Below, one piece after another: positions 19,741 to 54,537 of a stretch of DNA of 64,000 nt. The stretch's first letter is position 1. Every line of letters starts with the position of its first letter. The translations under genes were made by a program, and so were the position numbers. The notes below the pieces were generated by a model. That model searched no databases. It was not told where the DNA came from and saw nothing but the letters and a program-made list of their open reading frames with translations. Source of the stretch: Streptomyces griseus subsp. griseus (GTDB taxonomy: Bacteria; Actinomycetota; Actinomycetes; Streptomycetales; Streptomycetaceae); contig NZ_JOJE01000051.1 of NCBI RefSeq assembly GCF_000720255.1, forward strand, positions 1-64,000. Reading direction: 5' to 3'.

Positions 19741-19865
19741 CGTAGAAGGGCGGCCGGGGGCGGGCCATGGGTTCAGGGGGTGGGACGGAGGTATGCCTGG
19801 CCCTACCCCAAGTCTCGGTCCTGCCGCACTGATTGCGGACCGGGTCGCGGGGTTTCGTTGTGGCC

Positions 19866-20743
<878 letters not shown>

Positions 20744-20750
<7 letters not shown>

Positions 20751-33149: not shown

Positions 33150-33400
33150 CGCTGTCCTTGCTGTCCTTACGCGAGCGGCAGGCGGGCTATGACTTCGAAT
33201 GAGCGCTGGAGCAACCATAGGCGCAGGGCCCCGTGCCACTTGACGCGGAGTCGGGAACCGACGCGGACGGACGTTCGATCTTGCCCGGCGGAGTGTCAAG
33301 AAATCGTCAAGAGTTAGGTAAGGTAACGAAGTAGTTGGGTGCCGGGGGCCTCGACTTCGTGTCCTATGTACATGAGCGTTCACGCGCGTGTGTGCCATGC

Positions 33401-34927
33401 GTGAACCAGGGAAGGGAACGGCCGCTGACTGTCCACCACCTCAACCAGCTTCTGCTCGTCTGCTCGCTCGTCCTGCTCGTCGCCGTGGCAGCGGTCCGGA
33501 TCTCCTCGCGCAGCGGGCTCCCCAGCCTGCTCGTCTACCTGGGCATCGGCGTCCTCATGGGCCAGGACGGCATCGGCGACATCCACTTCGACAACGCCGA
33601 GATGACCCAGGTCATCGGATACGCGGCCCTGGTCGTGATCCTGGCCGAGGGCGGTCTGGGCACGAAGTGGAAGGAGATCAAACCGGTCCTGCCGGTCGCC
33701 TCCGCACTCGCGCTGGTCGGGGTCGGGATCAGCGTCGCGGTCACCGCCGCGGGCGCGCACTATCTGGTCGGGCTCGAGTGGCGGCAGGCGTTCATCATCG
33801 GAGCGGTGGTCTCCTCGACGGATGCCGCGGCGGTCTTCTCGGTGCTGCGGAAGGTCCCCCTCCCCGCGCGCGTGACCGGCACGTTGGAGGCCGAGTCCGG
33901 CTTCAACGACGCCCCCGTGGTCATCCTGGTGGTCGCCTTCTCCATGGCAGGTCCGGTCGAACACTGGTACGTGCTGGTGGGCGAGATAGCGCTGGAGCTG
34001 GCCATCGGCGCGGCCATCGGTCTCGCGGTGGGCTGGCTGGGCGCCTGGGGCCTCAGGCACGTCGCCCTGCCCGCCTCCGGCCTCTACCCCATCGCCGTCA
34101 TGGCCATCGCGGTGACGGCCTACGCGGCGGGCGCGATGGCGCACGGCAGCGGCTTCCTGGGCGTGTACCTCGCCTCCATGGTCATGGGCAACGCGAAGCT
34201 GCCGCACTGGCCCGCCACGCGCGGGTTCGCCGACGGGCTCGGCTGGATCGCCCAGATCGGCATGTTCGTGCTGCTCGGCCTGCTGGTCACCCCGCACGAG
34301 CTGGGTGACGACGTGTGGCCCGCACTGGTCATCGGCCTGGTGCTGACCATGGTGGCCCGCCCCCTGAGCGTGGTGTTCTGCCTGGTGCCGTTCCGGCTGC
34401 CGTGGCAGGAGCAGGCCCTCATGTCGTGGGCCGGGCTGCGCGGCGCCGTGCCCATCATCCTGGCGACCATCCCCATGGTGGAGGGCGTCGACGCCAGCCG
34501 CCGGATCTTCAACATCGTCTTCGTGCTGGTCGTCGTCTACACCCTGATCCAGGGGCCGACCCTGCCGTGGCTCGCCCGCGAGCTGCGCCTCGGCAAGGAG
34601 CCCGAGGCCGCCGACCTGGGCATCGAGTCGGCGCCCCTGGAGCGGCTGCGCGGACATCTGCTGTCCGTGGCCATCCCCGAGGGCTCGAAGATGCACGGCG
34701 TCGAGGTCCACGAGCTGCGCCTGCCGGCCGGGGCCGCGGTCACCCTCGTCGTCCGCGATGGAAAATCGTTCGTCCCGCTGCCGACGACCGTGCTGCGGCG
34801 CGGTGACGAGTTGCTCGTGGTCGCCACGGACCCCGTCCGGGACGCGGCCGAGCGCCGGCTGCGCGCGGTGGGCCGCGGCGGAAAGCTGGCGGGATGGCTG
34901 GGGATGAACGGGGCGGAGACGCGCTGA
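33401..34927 (+). CDS. Potassium/proton antiporter with RCK-C domain (CPA1)
   Basis: About 505 aa: some 12-13 membrane helices of a CPA-type antiporter (VVSSTDAAAVFSVL and ESGFNDAPVVILV carry the conserved Asp residues for ion exchange), then a soluble RCK_C/TrkA_C domain from about residue 420 that senses nucleotides or ions. I give the GTG at 33401, but CTG at 33425 (reading TVHHLNQLLLVCSLV after it) has GAAGGGAA six bases upstream and fits the expected N-terminus better, so the real start may be CTG. Confidence 0.9.
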   Translation: MNQGRERPLTVHHLNQLLLVCSLVLLVAVAAVRISSRSGLPSLLVYLGIGVLMGQDGIGDIHFDNAEMTQVIGYAALVVILAEGGLGTKWKEIKPVLPVASALALVGVGISVAVTAAGAHYLVGLEWRQAFIIGAVVSSTDAAAVFSVLRKVPLPARVTGTLEAESGFNDAPVVILVVAFSMAGPVEHWYVLVGEIALELAIGAAIGLAVGWLGAWGLRHVALPASGLYPIAVMAIAVTAYAAGAMAHGSGFLGVYLASMVMGNAKLPHWPATRGFADGLGWIAQIGMFVLLGLLVTPHELGDDVWPALVIGLVLTMVARPLSVVFCLVPFRLPWQEQALMSWAGLRGAVPIILATIPMVEGVDASRRIFNIVFVLVVVYTLIQGPTLPWLARELRLGKEPEAADLGIESAPLERLRGHLLSVAIPEGSKMHGVEVHELRLPAGAAVTLVVRDGKSFVPLPTTVLRRGDELLVVATDPVRDAAERRLRAVGRGGKLAGWLGMNGAETR

Positions 34928-34930
34928 GAT

Positions 34931-34990
34931 GCACTGAGACGCACTGAGACGCACTGAGACGCACTGAGACGCACTGAGACGCACTGAGGG
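34931..34990. repeat. Six 10-bp tandem repeats after the antiporter gene
   Basis: Five exact copies of GCACTGAGAC and one GCACTGAGGG follow the antiporter stop by three bases; the preceding ATGCACTGAG shares the unit. The rest of the 355-bp gap to the MFS gene (34991-35282) shows no gene; it contains a TTTTCACAGGTGTACGG stretch and a CCGTATACGATG motif that may be promoter, and nothing else that I recognise. Confidence 0.9.
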
Positions 34991-44549: not shown

Positions 44550-46628
44550 TCAGGCGGCGACCGGCTGCTTCGCCTGCGACGCCGAGCCGGCCGCACCGTC
44601 CTGCGCGGCTCCGGCGGCCGTGGTGCCCGCGGCCGGCTTGCGCAGGCCCTTGAGGACGACGACCAGCGCGGTGGTGACCCCCACGCCCGCGGCGATGGCG
44701 ACCAGGTACAGGAACGGGTTGCCGATCAGCGGGACCACGAAGATGCCGCCGTGCGGGGCGCGCAGGGTGGCGCCGAAGGCCATCGACAGGGCGCCGGTGA
44801 TCGCGCCGCCGACCATCGAGGACGGGATGACGCGCAGCGGGTCGGCGGCGGCGAACGGGATCGCGCCCTCGGAGATGAAGGAGGCACCCAGGACCCAGGC
44901 GGCCTTGCCGTTCTCGCGCTCGGTCGGCGTGAAGAGCTTGCCGCGCACGGTCGTCGCCAGCGCCATGGCCAGCGGCGGGACCATACCGGCCGCCATCACC
45001 GCGGCCATGATCTTCATCGCGGAGTCGCTCGGGTTGGAGACGGCGATCCCGGCGGTGGCGAAGGTGTACGCGACCTTGTTGACGGGGCCGCCGAGGTCGA
45101 AGCACATCATCAGGCCGAGCAGGGCGCCGAGCAGGACGGCGTTGGAGCCGGTGAGGCCGTTCAGCCAGTCGGTCAGACCCTTCTGCGCCTCGGCGATGGG
45201 CTTGCCGATCACGACGAACATCAGGAAGCCGACCACCGCCGAGGAGATCAGCGGGATCACCACCACCGGCATGATGCCGCGTACCGCCGCCGGGATCTTA
45301 ACGCGCTGGATCGCCAGCACCACACCACCGGCGATCAGACCGGCGGCCAGACCGCCCAGGAAGCCCGCGTTGATGGTCACCGAGATCGCACCGCCGACGA
45401 AGCCGGGCACGAGGCCGGGCCGGTCGGCCATGCCGTAGGCGATGTAACCGGCGAGGACCGGGACCAGGAACCCGAAGGCGACGCCGCCGATCTGGAAGAG
45501 CAGCGCGGCCCAGCTGTCGGTCTGGGTCCACACGAAGTGGTCCATGACCGACGGCGCCTTGTTGATCTTGTAGCCGCCGATCGCGAAGCCGAGGGCGATC
45601 AGGAGTCCGCCCGCGGCGACGAACGGGACCATGTAACTGACGCCGGACATCAGCCACTTGCGCAGCTTGGTGCCGTAGCCCTCGGTGGAGTCTCCGGCGC
45701 GCTCGACGGGCGTCGCACCCGGAGCGCCGGCGGTGACCTCGCCGCGCTCGGCCTTGCCGCGCACCTCGCTGATCAGCTCTCCGGGCCGGTTGATGCCGGC
45801 CTTCACACCGACGTCGACGGTGGGCTTGCCGGCGAAGCGGTCCTTCTCCCGTACGGGCACGTCGTGAGCGAAGATCACGGCGTCCGCGGCCGCGATGACC
45901 GCCGGGTCCAGCCGGGTGAAGCCCGCCGAGCCCTGGGTCTCCACGACGAGTTCGACACCCGCCTCGCGGCCGGCGTTCTCCAGCGACTCGGCCGCCATGT
46001 AGGTGTGGGCGATGCCGGTGGGACACGAGGTGACGGCGACGATCCGGAACGGCCGCTCCTCCGCGGCCTGCTCCTCGGTGGCGGCCGGGGCCGCGACCGT
46101 GGCGGCGTCGGCGGAGGCCGCCGCCGACGCCGCCACGGAGTCTTCGGAACGCGCCGTTTCGGCTTCGGTGGACCCGGCGTCTGCGGGCTCGTCCCCGCGG
46201 ATCAGCGCGGCCGCCTCGGCCGCCGCGTCCACGGACCGCAGCGCGGCGGTGAACTCGGCGTTCATCAGCTGCCGGGCCAGCGACGAAAGGATCGTCAGGT
46301 GGGCGTCGTCGGCGCCGGCCGGCGCGGCGATCAGGAAGATCAGGTCGGCGGGGCCGTCCGCCGCGCCGAAGTCGATCCCGGCTGTGCTGCGCCCGAAGGC
46401 GAGCGTCGGCTCGGTGACGTACTCACTGCGGCAGTGCGGGATGCCGATGCCACCGTCGAGGCCGGTGGGCATCTGTGCTTCGCGCGCGGCCACGTCGGCG
46501 AGGAAGCCGTCCAGGTCGGTCACCCGGCCCAGGGCCACCATGCGCTCGGCGAGGGCACGCGCCGCCGCTTCCTTGGTATCGGCGGACAGGTCGAGGTCGA
46601 CCAGGTCCGCGGTGATCATGTCGCTCAT
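44550..46628 (-). CDS. fruA: PTS fructose transporter, fused IIABC
   Basis: A 692-aa protein with three fused PTS domains: EIIA (His65 in IGIPHCRSEY is phosphorylated by HPr), EIIB (Cys202 in VAVTSCPTGIAHTY) and EIIC from about residue 310, with some ten membrane helices. It imports fructose as fructose 1-phosphate, the substrate of the adjacent fruK. AAGGAG lies seven bases before the ATG. It is last in fruR-fruK-fruA. Confidence 0.95.
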   Translation of the reverse strand: MSDMITADLVDLDLSADTKEAAARALAERMVALGRVTDLDGFLADVAAREAQMPTGLDGGIGIPHCRSEYVTEPTLAFGRSTAGIDFGAADGPADLIFLIAAPAGADDAHLTILSSLARQLMNAEFTAALRSVDAAAEAAALIRGDEPADAGSTEAETARSEDSVAASAAASADAATVAAPAATEEQAAEERPFRIVAVTSCPTGIAHTYMAAESLENAGREAGVELVVETQGSAGFTRLDPAVIAAADAVIFAHDVPVREKDRFAGKPTVDVGVKAGINRPGELISEVRGKAERGEVTAGAPGATPVERAGDSTEGYGTKLRKWLMSGVSYMVPFVAAGGLLIALGFAIGGYKINKAPSVMDHFVWTQTDSWAALLFQIGGVAFGFLVPVLAGYIAYGMADRPGLVPGFVGGAISVTINAGFLGGLAAGLIAGGVVLAIQRVKIPAAVRGIMPVVVIPLISSAVVGFLMFVVIGKPIAEAQKGLTDWLNGLTGSNAVLLGALLGLMMCFDLGGPVNKVAYTFATAGIAVSNPSDSAMKIMAAVMAAGMVPPLAMALATTVRGKLFTPTERENGKAAWVLGASFISEGAIPFAAADPLRVIPSSMVGGAITGALSMAFGATLRAPHGGIFVVPLIGNPFLYLVAIAAGVGVTTALVVVLKGLRKPAAGTTAAGAAQDGAAGSASQAKQPVAA

Positions 46629-46969
46629 CGCGGGCTCCTTCGCACGCGTATCGCCCGGCAGGGGGGATGGGCGGGAGAGGGGACGGGGGTGCTGTGGGGG
46701 GTGACGAGAGGGGTGGGGGTGGGGGCGAGGGCGTGGGGGATGGCGGGTAACACGGAGCCTCGCCACTCCGGGGCAGCTGACCGAGCGGTCGTGGCCCGGC
46801 GAACGGCCGCGGCTGAGCAAGCGGTCGTAGCACGACCAACGGCCGCGGCTGACCGAGCGGCGGCTGAGCAAGCGGCCGTAGCACGACCAACGGCCGCGGC
46901 TGAGCAAGCGGCCGTAGCACGACCAACGGCCGCGGCTGAGCAAGCGGTCGTAGCTGAGCGGACGTTCAT
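46625..46969 (-). CDS. Repeat-bearing linking frame between fruK and fruA (doubtful gene)
   Basis: An ATG at 46969 overlaps the fruK stop (ATGA) and the 114-codon frame ends on a TGA that overlaps the fruA ATG, again ATGA. The first half is a 12-residue repeat (AAVGRATAACSA type) from 36-bp repeats; the rest is Pro/His/Ser-rich. It has no known domain. Long chance frames are common in such GC-rich DNA, so it may not be a gene, but the double ATGA could keep ribosomes coupled across the gap. Confidence 0.25.
   Translation of the reverse strand: MNVRSATTACSAAAVGRATAACSAAAVGRATAACSAAARSAAAVGRATTACSAAAVRRATTARSAAPEWRGSVLPAIPHALAPTPTPLVTPHSTPVPSPAHPPCRAIRVRRSPR
46776..46961. repeat. 36-bp tandem repeats in the fruK-fruA gap
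   Basis: Units begin at 46776, 46812, 46863, 46899 and 46935 with core GCTGAGCAAGCGGCCGTAGC then ACGACCAACGGCCGCG; a 15-bp partial unit sits at 46848-46862. About 4.7 copies fill the 337-bp gap next to fruK. No promoter or other gene is apparent in the rest of the gap (46629-46775), which is G-rich. Confidence 0.92.
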
Positions 46970-51432: not shown

Positions 51433-51576
51433 GGCGGCTCGGGGTGGCCGCGGCACGTGCTCGGCAGGGCGTGCGCGGGGTGTGGGTGGGTGCGTGGCAG
51501 AATCGGGCGTTCGGGTGGGTCACCCCGTGGTTCAGGTACGGGGTGGCCCGCCCTTTGGTGTGCCGCGGGAGAAGTA

Positions 51577-51624
51577 GAGCCGGGCTCCGGCGCCCGGGGG
51601 GGGGAGAGCGCCGGAGCCCGGCTC
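51577..51624. terminator. Strong 17-bp hairpin between WYL regulator and hrdD
   Basis: GAGCCGGGCTCCGGCGC at 51577-51593 pairs perfectly with GCGCCGGAGCCCGGCTC at 51608-51624 across a G-rich loop. Two weaker inverted repeats follow (AAGTCCCG/CGGGACTT at about 51627-51664, and CCCGGG/CCCGGG near 51680-51695). No gene is seen in 51433-51766. Confidence 0.75.
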
Positions 51625-51766
51625 GGGGAAAGTCCCGGCGCCGGGGGGATTGCGTCGGGACTTGGTCTTGGGGCCCGGGTGGAGGTCCCGGGAGGGGGAG
51701 GAACTGGCCTTTCGTGGAGTCTTGTTCCCGGAGACCAGGGTTTGAAGCGGCCTTACCTCGCCATGT

Positions 51767-52912
51767 TTACGCGGGCTTTGCCACCCGGCGCACGCCCTCG
51801 GCGCGGCATCGTCCGCCGGACCACCGCCCGCACCGCCGGCCTACGCACTGGAGACCTGCGCACCACCGGCCTGCGCACTGGAGACCTGCGCACCACCGGC
51901 CTGCGCACCAGCGACCTGCGCACCACCGGCCTGCGCACCAGCGACCTGCGCACCACCGGCCTGCGCACCAGCGACCTGCGATCTGGCGGATGCGCTCGCG
52001 GGTGAGGCCGTGCTCCTTGCCGACCTCGGTCAGCGTGCGTTCCCGGCCGTCCTCGATGCCGTACCGCATCTTGATGATGGAGGCCGTGCGCTGGTCGAGG
52101 CGGCCGATGAGGTCGTCGAGGCCCTCGCTGCGCAGCAGGGTGAGGACGGACTGCTCGGGGGAGACCGCCGACGTGTCCTCCAGGAGGTCGCCGAACTGCG
52201 TCTCGCCCTCGTCGTCCACCGACATGTTCAGCGAGACCGGGTCACGGGCCCAGTCGAGCACGTCGATCACGCGCTCCGGCGTGGAGCCGAGCTCCGCGGC
52301 GATCTCCGCGGGCTCCGGGTCGCGGCCGTTCTCCCGGTTGAACTCGCGCTGTACGCGGCGGATCCGGCCGAGCTCCTCCACGAGGTGGACGGGCAGGCGG
52401 ATCGTGCGGGACTGGTCCGCTATCGAGCGGGTGATCGCCTGGCGGATCCACCAGGTCGCGTACGTCGAGAACTTGAAGCCCTTGCGGTAGTCGAACTTCT
52501 CGACCGCGCGGACCAGGCCGGCGTTGCCCTCCTGGATCAGGTCGAGCAGGGGCAGGCCGCTGCGGGGGTAGCGGCGCGCCACGGCGACGACCAGGCGGAG
52601 GTTGGAGCGGATGAAGACGTCCTTGGCCCGCTCGCCCTCGGCGACCAGGGCCTCGAGCTCCTCACGGGTGGCGTCCGCCTTGGACTCCTCGTACCCGTCG
52701 AGGACCTGGCGCGCGAATACCCCCGCTTCGATGGTCTGCGACAGCTCGACCTCCCTGGCGGCGTCGAGCAGCGGCGTGCGCGCGATCTCGTCGAGGTACA
52801 TGCCGACCAGGTCGCGGTCGGCGATCTCGCCGCCATGGGCGCGAACACTGCTTGCCGAGTCGACCGTCTCGCCGGAGGCGGACTGACGACGGGCGACGGC
52901 ACGGGTTGCCAT
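51767..52912 (-). CDS. hrdD: HrdD-type primary-family sigma factor with repeat-replaced C-terminus
   Basis: A 381-aa sigma-70 family protein. Residues 1-311 are a normal group 1/2 sigma factor: region 1.2 near 34-60, region 2 with IRSNLRLVVAVARRY, QEGNAGLVRAVEKFDY and STYATWWIRQAITR (101-162), region 3 and region 4 to LTRERIRQI. The usual ending (EKHALLELKK and about 15 more residues) is absent. Instead 70 residues follow, starting with AGRWC pentapeptides, ten of which end in Cys. The -35-contact residues (TRERIRQ) remain, but the helix end and the flap/activator face are lost. HrdD identity is from sequence memory and the adjacent acetyltransferase gene. Confidence 0.85.
   Translation of the reverse strand: MATRAVARRQSASGETVDSASSVRAHGGEIADRDLVGMYLDEIARTPLLDAAREVELSQTIEAGVFARQVLDGYEESKADATREELEALVAEGERAKDVFIRSNLRLVVAVARRYPRSGLPLLDLIQEGNAGLVRAVEKFDYRKGFKFSTYATWWIRQAITRSIADQSRTIRLPVHLVEELGRIRRVQREFNRENGRDPEPAEIAAELGSTPERVIDVLDWARDPVSLNMSVDDEGETQFGDLLEDTSAVSPEQSVLTLLRSEGLDDLIGRLDQRTASIIKMRYGIEDGRERTLTEVGKEHGLTRERIRQIAGRWCAGRWCAGRWCAGRWCAGRWCAGRWCAGLQCAGRWCAGLQCVGRRCGRWSGGRCRAEGVRRVAKPA
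51841..51980. repeat. 30-bp (2 x 15-bp) tandem repeats at the hrdD 3' end
   Basis: Four full 30-bp units start at 51841, 51871, 51901 and 51931, with a partial fifth to 51980. Each is two related 15-mers, CTGCGCACCACCGGC and CTGCGCACCAGCGAC (earlier units CACTGGAGAC). The array begins exactly where the hrdD-like sequence ends. Confidence 0.95.
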
Positions 52913-53659: not shown

Positions 53660-53695
53660 GCTGTTCTCCGGCAGCCCCAGCCGATCCGCGGCGAC

Positions 53696-53764
53696 CGCCT
53701 CGGTCGAAGTGGAGCAACCGTCTCGGCCGAACTGGAGCGTCCGTCTCAGCCGAACTGGAGCGAC
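53696..53764. repeat. Three 23-bp tandem repeats at the dioxygenase gene end
   Basis: Units at 53696, 53719 and 53742 share GTCTCGGCCGAACTGGAGCG. The third overlaps the last six codons and stop of the minus-strand dioxygenase gene. Confidence 0.85.
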
Positions 53765-54537
53765 CGCTTCGCCAGCCCCATCCAGAAGCCGTCGATCACG
53801 GACTTCTGTGCGTCGAGCTCCCCGTCGGCCTCCGCCGCGCCCATGGTGACGAACAGGGGGGCGAAGTGCTCGGTGCGCGGGTGGGCGTAGCGGCCGGCCG
53901 GGGCCTTGTGGAGGAAGTCCAGCAGGCCGTCCCAGTCGCGGGTCTCCAGGGCGCGGCGGCCCCAGTCGTCGAACTCCGCGGACCAGCTCGGCACGCCCGG
54001 GCCGGTGTGGCGCAAGGCGGCCAGGTTGTGGGTGAAGAAGCCGGAGCCGACGATCAGCACACCCTCGTCGCGCAGCGGCGCGAGCTTGCGGCCGATCTCC
54101 ATCAGCCGCACCGGGTCGAGGGTCGGCATGGAGACCTGGAGCACCGGGACGTCGGCCTCGGGGAACATCTCGACGAGCGGCACGTACGCGCCGTGGTCGA
54201 GGCCGCGGTCCGGTATGTCCTGGACGGGGATGCCGGGGGCGCGCAGCAGCTTGCGCACGGATTCGGCCAGTTCCGGCGCGCCGGGGGCTCCGTAGCGGAC
54301 CTGGTAGTAGTGCTCGGGGAAGCCCCAGAAGTCGTAGACGAGGGGGACGGTCTCGGTGGCGCCGAGGGCCAGCGGGGCCTCCTCCCAGTGGGCGGAGACC
54401 ATCAGGATCGCCTTGGGCCGCGGCAGGTCGGCGGACCACTTGGCGAGCTGACCGGGCCAGATCGGGTCGTCCGCCAGCGGCGGCGCGCCGTGACTGAGGT
54501 ACAGGGCGGGCATGCGCTCCTGGGTTGCGGCGGACAT
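53746..54537 (-). CDS. LigB-type extradiol dioxygenase (DODA/YgiD family)
   Basis: A 263-aa class III extradiol ring-cleavage enzyme. The metal-binding His residues are in LYLSHGAPPLADD (residues 12-24), SAHWEE and DHGAYVPL; GSGFFTHNLAAL is also family-typical. The DODA branch cleaves catechols such as 4,5-DOPA. It is divergent from a MarR gene across a shared operator region. Confidence 0.88.
   Translation of the reverse strand: MSAATQERMPALYLSHGAPPLADDPIWPGQLAKWSADLPRPKAILMVSAHWEEAPLALGATETVPLVYDFWGFPEHYYQVRYGAPGAPELAESVRKLLRAPGIPVQDIPDRGLDHGAYVPLVEMFPEADVPVLQVSMPTLDPVRLMEIGRKLAPLRDEGVLIVGSGFFTHNLAALRHTGPGVPSWSAEFDDWGRRALETRDWDGLLDFLHKAPAGRYAHPRTEHFAPLFVTMGAAEADGELDAQKSVIDGFWMGLAKRSLQFG

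Follow-up and report, generated by a model that had tools for sequence, protein, structure and literature searches.

The closest described systems are the HrdD sigma factors of relatives such as Streptomyces ambofaciens (P0115) and Streptomyces sp. NPDC006314 (P0001, an intact protein of 332 aa), which share regions 1.2 to 4 and have the small RNA Scr3202 encoded downstream. According to passages of PMC5742136, which cite Fujii 1996 and Kang 1997, secondary metabolism and differentiation are unchanged in hrdD mutants, and loss of hrdD should therefore be tolerable. The same passages name envelope stress, oxidative damage and hyperosmolarity as inducers of hrdD. For S. albulus (PMC4361855), in-vitro binding of HrdD to the pls promoter is described, and an HrdD mutation goes with low yield, so the gene may matter in some species. 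No report of a C-terminal lesion in hrdD was found in the literature, as judged by titles and the openings of abstracts.

In the stretch of 64,000 nucleotides analyzed here (the window), the hrdD open reading frame comprises 381 codons and a stop on the minus strand (52912..51767). The hrdD body (codons 1–311; 51980–52912, minus strand), delimited by alignment with P0001 and by Pfam, encodes a group 2 sigma-70 factor with regions 1.2, 2, 3 and most of region 4. Its last native residues are GLTRERIRQI, ending at residue 311 (codon at 51980–51982). From there the frame enters a tandem array (51829–51980, minus strand), for which Tandem Repeats Finder gave a 30-bp period with 5.1 copies and 95% matches, each unit consisting of two 15-mers; an alternative solution has a period of 15, 10.1 copies and 78% matches. 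With a head-to-tail unit in the 10–60 bp range and high identity between copies, the array is a minisatellite. It is translated into ten pentads (six AGRWC, then AGLQC, AGRWC, AGLQC and VGRRC; codons 312–361 at 51830–51979), which are followed by a basic end of 20 residues, GRWSGGRCRAEGVRRVAKPA (51770–51829, minus strand), and a TAA stop codon (51767–51769, minus strand). Compared with the HrdD of P0115 and P0001, the last 21 residues and the stop are thus exchanged for a 70-residue tail of translated array and spacer. The tail contains 11 cysteines, ten of them from the array pentads, and the body none; its charged residues are 15 K/R and 1 D/E. The sequence-only reading had described the normal frame up to residue 311, the start of the array, the ten pentads and the 20-residue end, and each proved correct when re-read. 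Its term “pentapeptide repeats” suits the five-residue period that the tail has in common with the family of pentapeptide repeat proteins, but not their profile, as no Pfam repeat family was detected in the 381-aa protein at E ≤ 1. On the plus strand, the frame 51457–52002 gave only a sub-cutoff Decapeptide hit (26 vs 45 bits).

The body is that of an ordinary HrdD. P0001 aligns to the locus only over residues 1–312, with 98–99% identity, and the best 120 proteins listed, among which the strain’s own HrdD is absent, are 92–99% identical over about the same residues. The 98% match to P0001 over 312 aa, together with the downstream Scr3202, identifies the gene as an ortholog of hrdD. Pfam places regions 1.2, 2 and 3 (PF00140, PF04542 and PF04539) above their cutoffs. 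Across 18 aligned sequences, with gapped columns left out, the body carries a single private substitution (K53R), a count that gives no sign of relaxed selection on the rest of the gene. Near-identity to an intact relative and the lone private substitution suggest that the lesion is recent, or else an artefact.

The native end of the gene, EKHALLELKKLAR.TGFDAAA followed by a stop, was not found elsewhere in the strain’s own 9.9-Mb assembly, nor was a second intact hrdD copy, the next-best sigma factors being 50–51% identical. A search of the genome for the RQI–EKHA pattern returned a single hit with 3 mismatches (C20:93281), which is not hrdD. An insertion without loss is thereby ruled out. 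This agrees with the sequence-only reading, in which the native tail was absent from 51433–51840 and hence replaced, not just interrupted.

The comparison with hrdD of relatives that had been proposed there shows an intact 3′ end at 66 of 66 loci read. These loci come from 29 of the 34 non-own genomes of one match set (the rest being without the locus), from the 8 closest of 80 loci, the remainder of which are at most 60% identical and hence other sigma genes, and from 29 genomes among the 382 that, besides the strain’s own, matched a 461-bp hrdD 3′ query (the last 180 bp of the body, the array and the spacer); G009 and G032 are counted twice. The ending EKHAL(L/M)ELK(K/R)(L/M)A..TGF.... plus stop is present at all 37 loci printed and at 61 of 66 parsed with a stricter expression, and the five unparsed loci (L023, L030, L031, L034 and L035) are among the 37 read as intact, which brings the count to 66. 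The hrdD allele of the window lacks a part conserved in its close relatives and in this respect resembles a pseudogene. More broadly, the RQI–EKHA pattern (≤3 mismatches) occurs in 386 of 391 other genomes of the genus (387 of 392 with the strain’s own), an approximate figure that holds among the matches listed, since in some genomes the 3-mismatch hits fall outside hrdD. The five pattern-negative genomes (G001, G163, G176, G336 and G354) consist of 630–1040 contigs each and are also among the nine that have no match to the hrdD 3′ query at E ≤ 1e-40.

The origin of the basic end can be traced to the DNA behind the gene. Scr3202 is intact downstream of hrdD (51573–51665, minus strand; Rfam RF02833), with a score of 83.7 bits against a gathering score of 52, an E-value of 6.2e-12 and a match to model positions 1–95 of 95. 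A blastn search with 51561–51829 matched 47 of the 66 relative loci, and 31 of these matches start at query base 20–39. The homology to the relatives’ intergenic DNA passes through a conserved block, CGTGCGCCGGGTGGC..AAACATGGC, on the way to Scr3202, and the basic end of the tail runs into this block. Because the stretch past the array is homologous to the relatives’ intergenic DNA before Scr3202, the last residues of the frame are, on homology, translated 3′ spacer. The new stop lies within the conserved block and reflects a difference there: the sequence is CGTAAACATGG here, a form seen at none of the 66 loci, and CGCAAACATGG at 27 of them. The distance in relatives from the hrdD stop to the motif CGCTT(C/A)A is 51–492 bp (median 136 bp; 41 of 59 distinct loci, with the motif found), and the position of the array corresponds to that of this 3′ spacer. 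Tandem repeats of other units occur behind hrdD at 23 of 61 relative loci at a score of at least 40, L149 being the strongest. The block upstream of Scr3202 (CGCTTCAA...GGGAACAAGACT) is itself conserved and may hold a putative Scr3202 promoter.

The array is far beyond chance, while its open frame is not. Five of the six frames through it are free of stops, and a 30-bp unit at 71.3% GC has a probability of 0.84 of being open in a given frame; the open tail accordingly needs no selection and is no sign of coding. The copies are uniform beside hrdD and degenerate toward Scr3202 (TCTCCAG variants, then CGTAGGCCGGCGGTG), and this combination of one abrupt and one graded edge is what would be expected if a deletion had cut into an old array from one side. 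The same array was found at hrdD in none of 391 other genomes of the genus (E ≤ 1e-12) and in none of a 394-genome draw from the family that overlaps the genus draw (E ≤ 1e-14), so the presence of an array in the spacer before the deletion can only be surmised. The genus draw did contain two other period-15 arrays, in G403 (L156) and G147 (L157), at unrelated places, and the family draw one in G554 (L229), likewise at an unrelated place. These three represent period-15 minisatellites of Streptomycetaceae that share with the hrdD array the 15-bp period, an CACCACCGGCC-like core and a position at or near gene borders, and differ from it in lying elsewhere than hrdD; the L157 array, judged by eye, lies 3′ of an intact stop. 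The occurrence of similar arrays near gene borders (L156, L157), including one in the one-contig genome G554, shows that arrays of this class are natural; doubt attaches to the junctions themselves. The L229 array (G554:C1:8566724-8566835) comes from another genus, is 83% identical to the hrdD array over 112 bp and is in frame with the N-terminal codons of a gene named by eye as deacetylase-like.

Searches with the protein tail gave little. None of 1912 candidate proteins matched residues 300–381 at E ≤ 0.001 in a database clustered at 90% identity, a clustering that could hide the same tail in sister strains. A weak match in the own genome (C1:382762-382986; 35% identity, residues 306–379, E 1.1e-4) is overlapped by 18-bp and 45-bp tandem arrays (L191, G000:C1:382544-383072). 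A plasmid search returned six records, all partial matches to other bacteria.

Apart from hrdD, the array region matches the own genome at C20:63773-63853 (77%) and C57:29078-29124 (47 bp). The former lies in a gene for a DAK2-domain protein (L158, C20:63680-65353, minus strand) that reads ...EAYLAVDTVV and then continues into TTGHR repeats; the DNA that specifies them is a perfect array of 6.3 copies with a 15-bp unit (100% matches). The ending VDT..Y.GG.....LLIG(V/I)E plus stop is present at all 13 parseable loci of relatives, from a comparison that covered 17 (L159–L175) of 29 non-own loci, with L164, L171, L173 and L174 unparsed; in the own gene, the end that reads YRGGRQGALLLIGVE plus stop in relatives is replaced. 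The protein with the repeat tail is present in the protein database as P0121. In this gene of the same assembly, a conserved C-terminus and its stop are thus likewise exchanged in frame for a period-15 array, which differs from the hrdD array in its perfect copies and in its position between convergent genes. An altered end in the convergent neighbor was considered and dropped, since that end varies among relatives. A genome-wide excess of minisatellites was not found: per 100 kb, 8.0 were counted in the strain’s own stretches (400 kb), 12.5 in the window and 11.0 in a total of 400 kb drawn from 20 relatives. This control is rough, as the own C20 stretch includes the DAK2 array and hrdD itself lies in the stretches of 17 of the 20 relatives. 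Nineteen of these 20 genomes are in one contig and G027 is in three.

We propose, with a probability of about 0.58, that hrdD was joined to a minisatellite of its 3′ spacer by a deletion of recent date, which produced a sigma factor damaged in region 4. The starting state would have been a spacer between hrdD and Scr3202 that held a minisatellite of 15/30-bp units. A deletion with its left end just past the RQI codons would have run into this array, removing the last 21 codons of hrdD together with the stop codon and the adjoining portion of the spacer, and joining hrdD in frame to the repeats; against it stands a microhomology at the junction of only about 2 bp, by eye. Ribosomes would then read through the array and 20 spacer codons as far as a chance TAA. 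The predicted product comprises regions 1.2 to 3 and, in region 4, only the beginning of the recognition helix, the rest of which would be gone, and would be tolerated given that hrdD mutants have little phenotype. The sequence-only reading had left a choice between a damaged paralogue and a thiol- or metal-responsive tail. The former gains from the intact relatives, the spacer origin of the tail end, the shortened region 4 and the DAK2 lesion; the latter drew on the Cys count alone.

The evidence comes from one draft assembly of a single strain in 265 contigs. The main rival reading, less probable but by no means remote, is that the array is real spacer DNA that an assembler or gap closer misjoined to hrdD, dropping the tail. 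A draft in this many contigs is open to such an error, the hrdD body is free of decay, and within the E-value limits applied, no other genome drawn showed such an array at hrdD. The DAK2 gene is broken in a similar style, and two such joins at 3′ ends could reflect a systematic error. Against a misjoin, the window and 400 kb of the strain’s own stretches contain no N, and the copies at hrdD are graded and diverged, unlike a looped gap fill. Furthermore, the ends of neighboring genes look complete by eye at at least 2 of 14 other arrays (L195:13842 and L198:11119), and related arrays lie at gene borders in the one-contig G554. That hrdD of the relatives is free of the array is compatible with either reading.

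If the join is genuine, what the protein can still do depends on region 4. PF04545 is matched at positions 2–41 of 50 here and at 2–50 in P0001, with 43.9 and 54.7 bits, respectively, against a cutoff of 24.1. The last nine of the 50 model positions, corresponding to the latter half of the final helix with EKHALLELKK, are absent. In sigma-70 factors, both the recognition helix and the hydrophobic core of region 4 are completed by this part; without it, the domain should be unstable in the fused HrdD. The main −35 contacts lie upstream of the break and would be retained. HrdD could in principle still be active with the array merely trailing behind RERIRQ, and the above-cutoff Pfam score leaves room for residual activity; the single private substitution in the body would also fit. 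We nevertheless regard an active HrdD as improbable, given the loss of the conserved EKHALLELKK half-helix and the Gly at the second residue past the break, where the helix would be expected to terminate. AlphaFold models computed from alignments of near-identical HrdDs point the same way, with ten-residue blocks of residues 271–320 dropping from 56–77 in the intact homologue to 35–50 in the fused protein, although neither model is of usable quality (mean pLDDT 58.1 and 47.7, respectively). Most likely, the fused HrdD would be a poor or inactive sigma factor. That the Cys-rich tail is made and confers a thiol or metal response on a re-tailed, functional HrdD seems highly improbable to us. The 11 cysteines and the basic charge of a tail behind a Cys-free body, as well as the induction of hrdD by stresses including oxidative damage (PMC5742136), are in line with such a role. 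On the other side stand the spacer origin of the post-array part, a frame that is one of five open in six, the absence of any family hit on the tail or any match at E ≤ 0.001 among the 1912 candidates from the clustered database, and the absence of such a tail from every locus and genome examined.

Should the fusion by deletion be real, it would provide a natural case of partial region 4 loss in HrdD, a group 2 sigma factor of still uncertain role. Taken with DAK2, it would also exemplify the in-frame erosion of gene 3′ ends by spacer minisatellites. We find it unlikely, on two genes, that period-15 spacer minisatellites of this lineage repeatedly expand into and delete conserved gene ends and so form a recurrent route to new tails, as in HrdD and DAK2. 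An array with a period that is a multiple of three tends to stay open, which would yield in-frame repetitive C-termini; by such a route, ten array cysteines would have been placed on a sigma factor. If the join is instead an artefact, it would point to a type of misassembly at the ends of genes, the products of which could pass for new C-termini in annotation. An open frame across a period-15/30 array at 71% GC should in any case not be taken as evidence of a coding tail.

Further tandem arrays lie at gene borders within the window. The C-terminus of an ABC-transporter ATPase-like gene (19860–20750, plus strand) consists of a 24-bp array in five copies (20620–20738) encoding AREVPSD-type octapeptides, and the last codons and the stop of a potassium/proton antiporter gene (33359–34988, plus strand) fall within a 10-bp array of 7.3 copies (34916–34988). 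A 23-bp array of 3.3 copies (53691–53766) is situated between convergent genes that appear by eye to be acetyltransferase-like and dioxygenase-like, with the stop of the latter inside the array. Finally, a complex repeat with periods of 36, 51 and 87 bp (46772–46954) is located just past the upper-coordinate end of the minus-strand frame 44550–46766.
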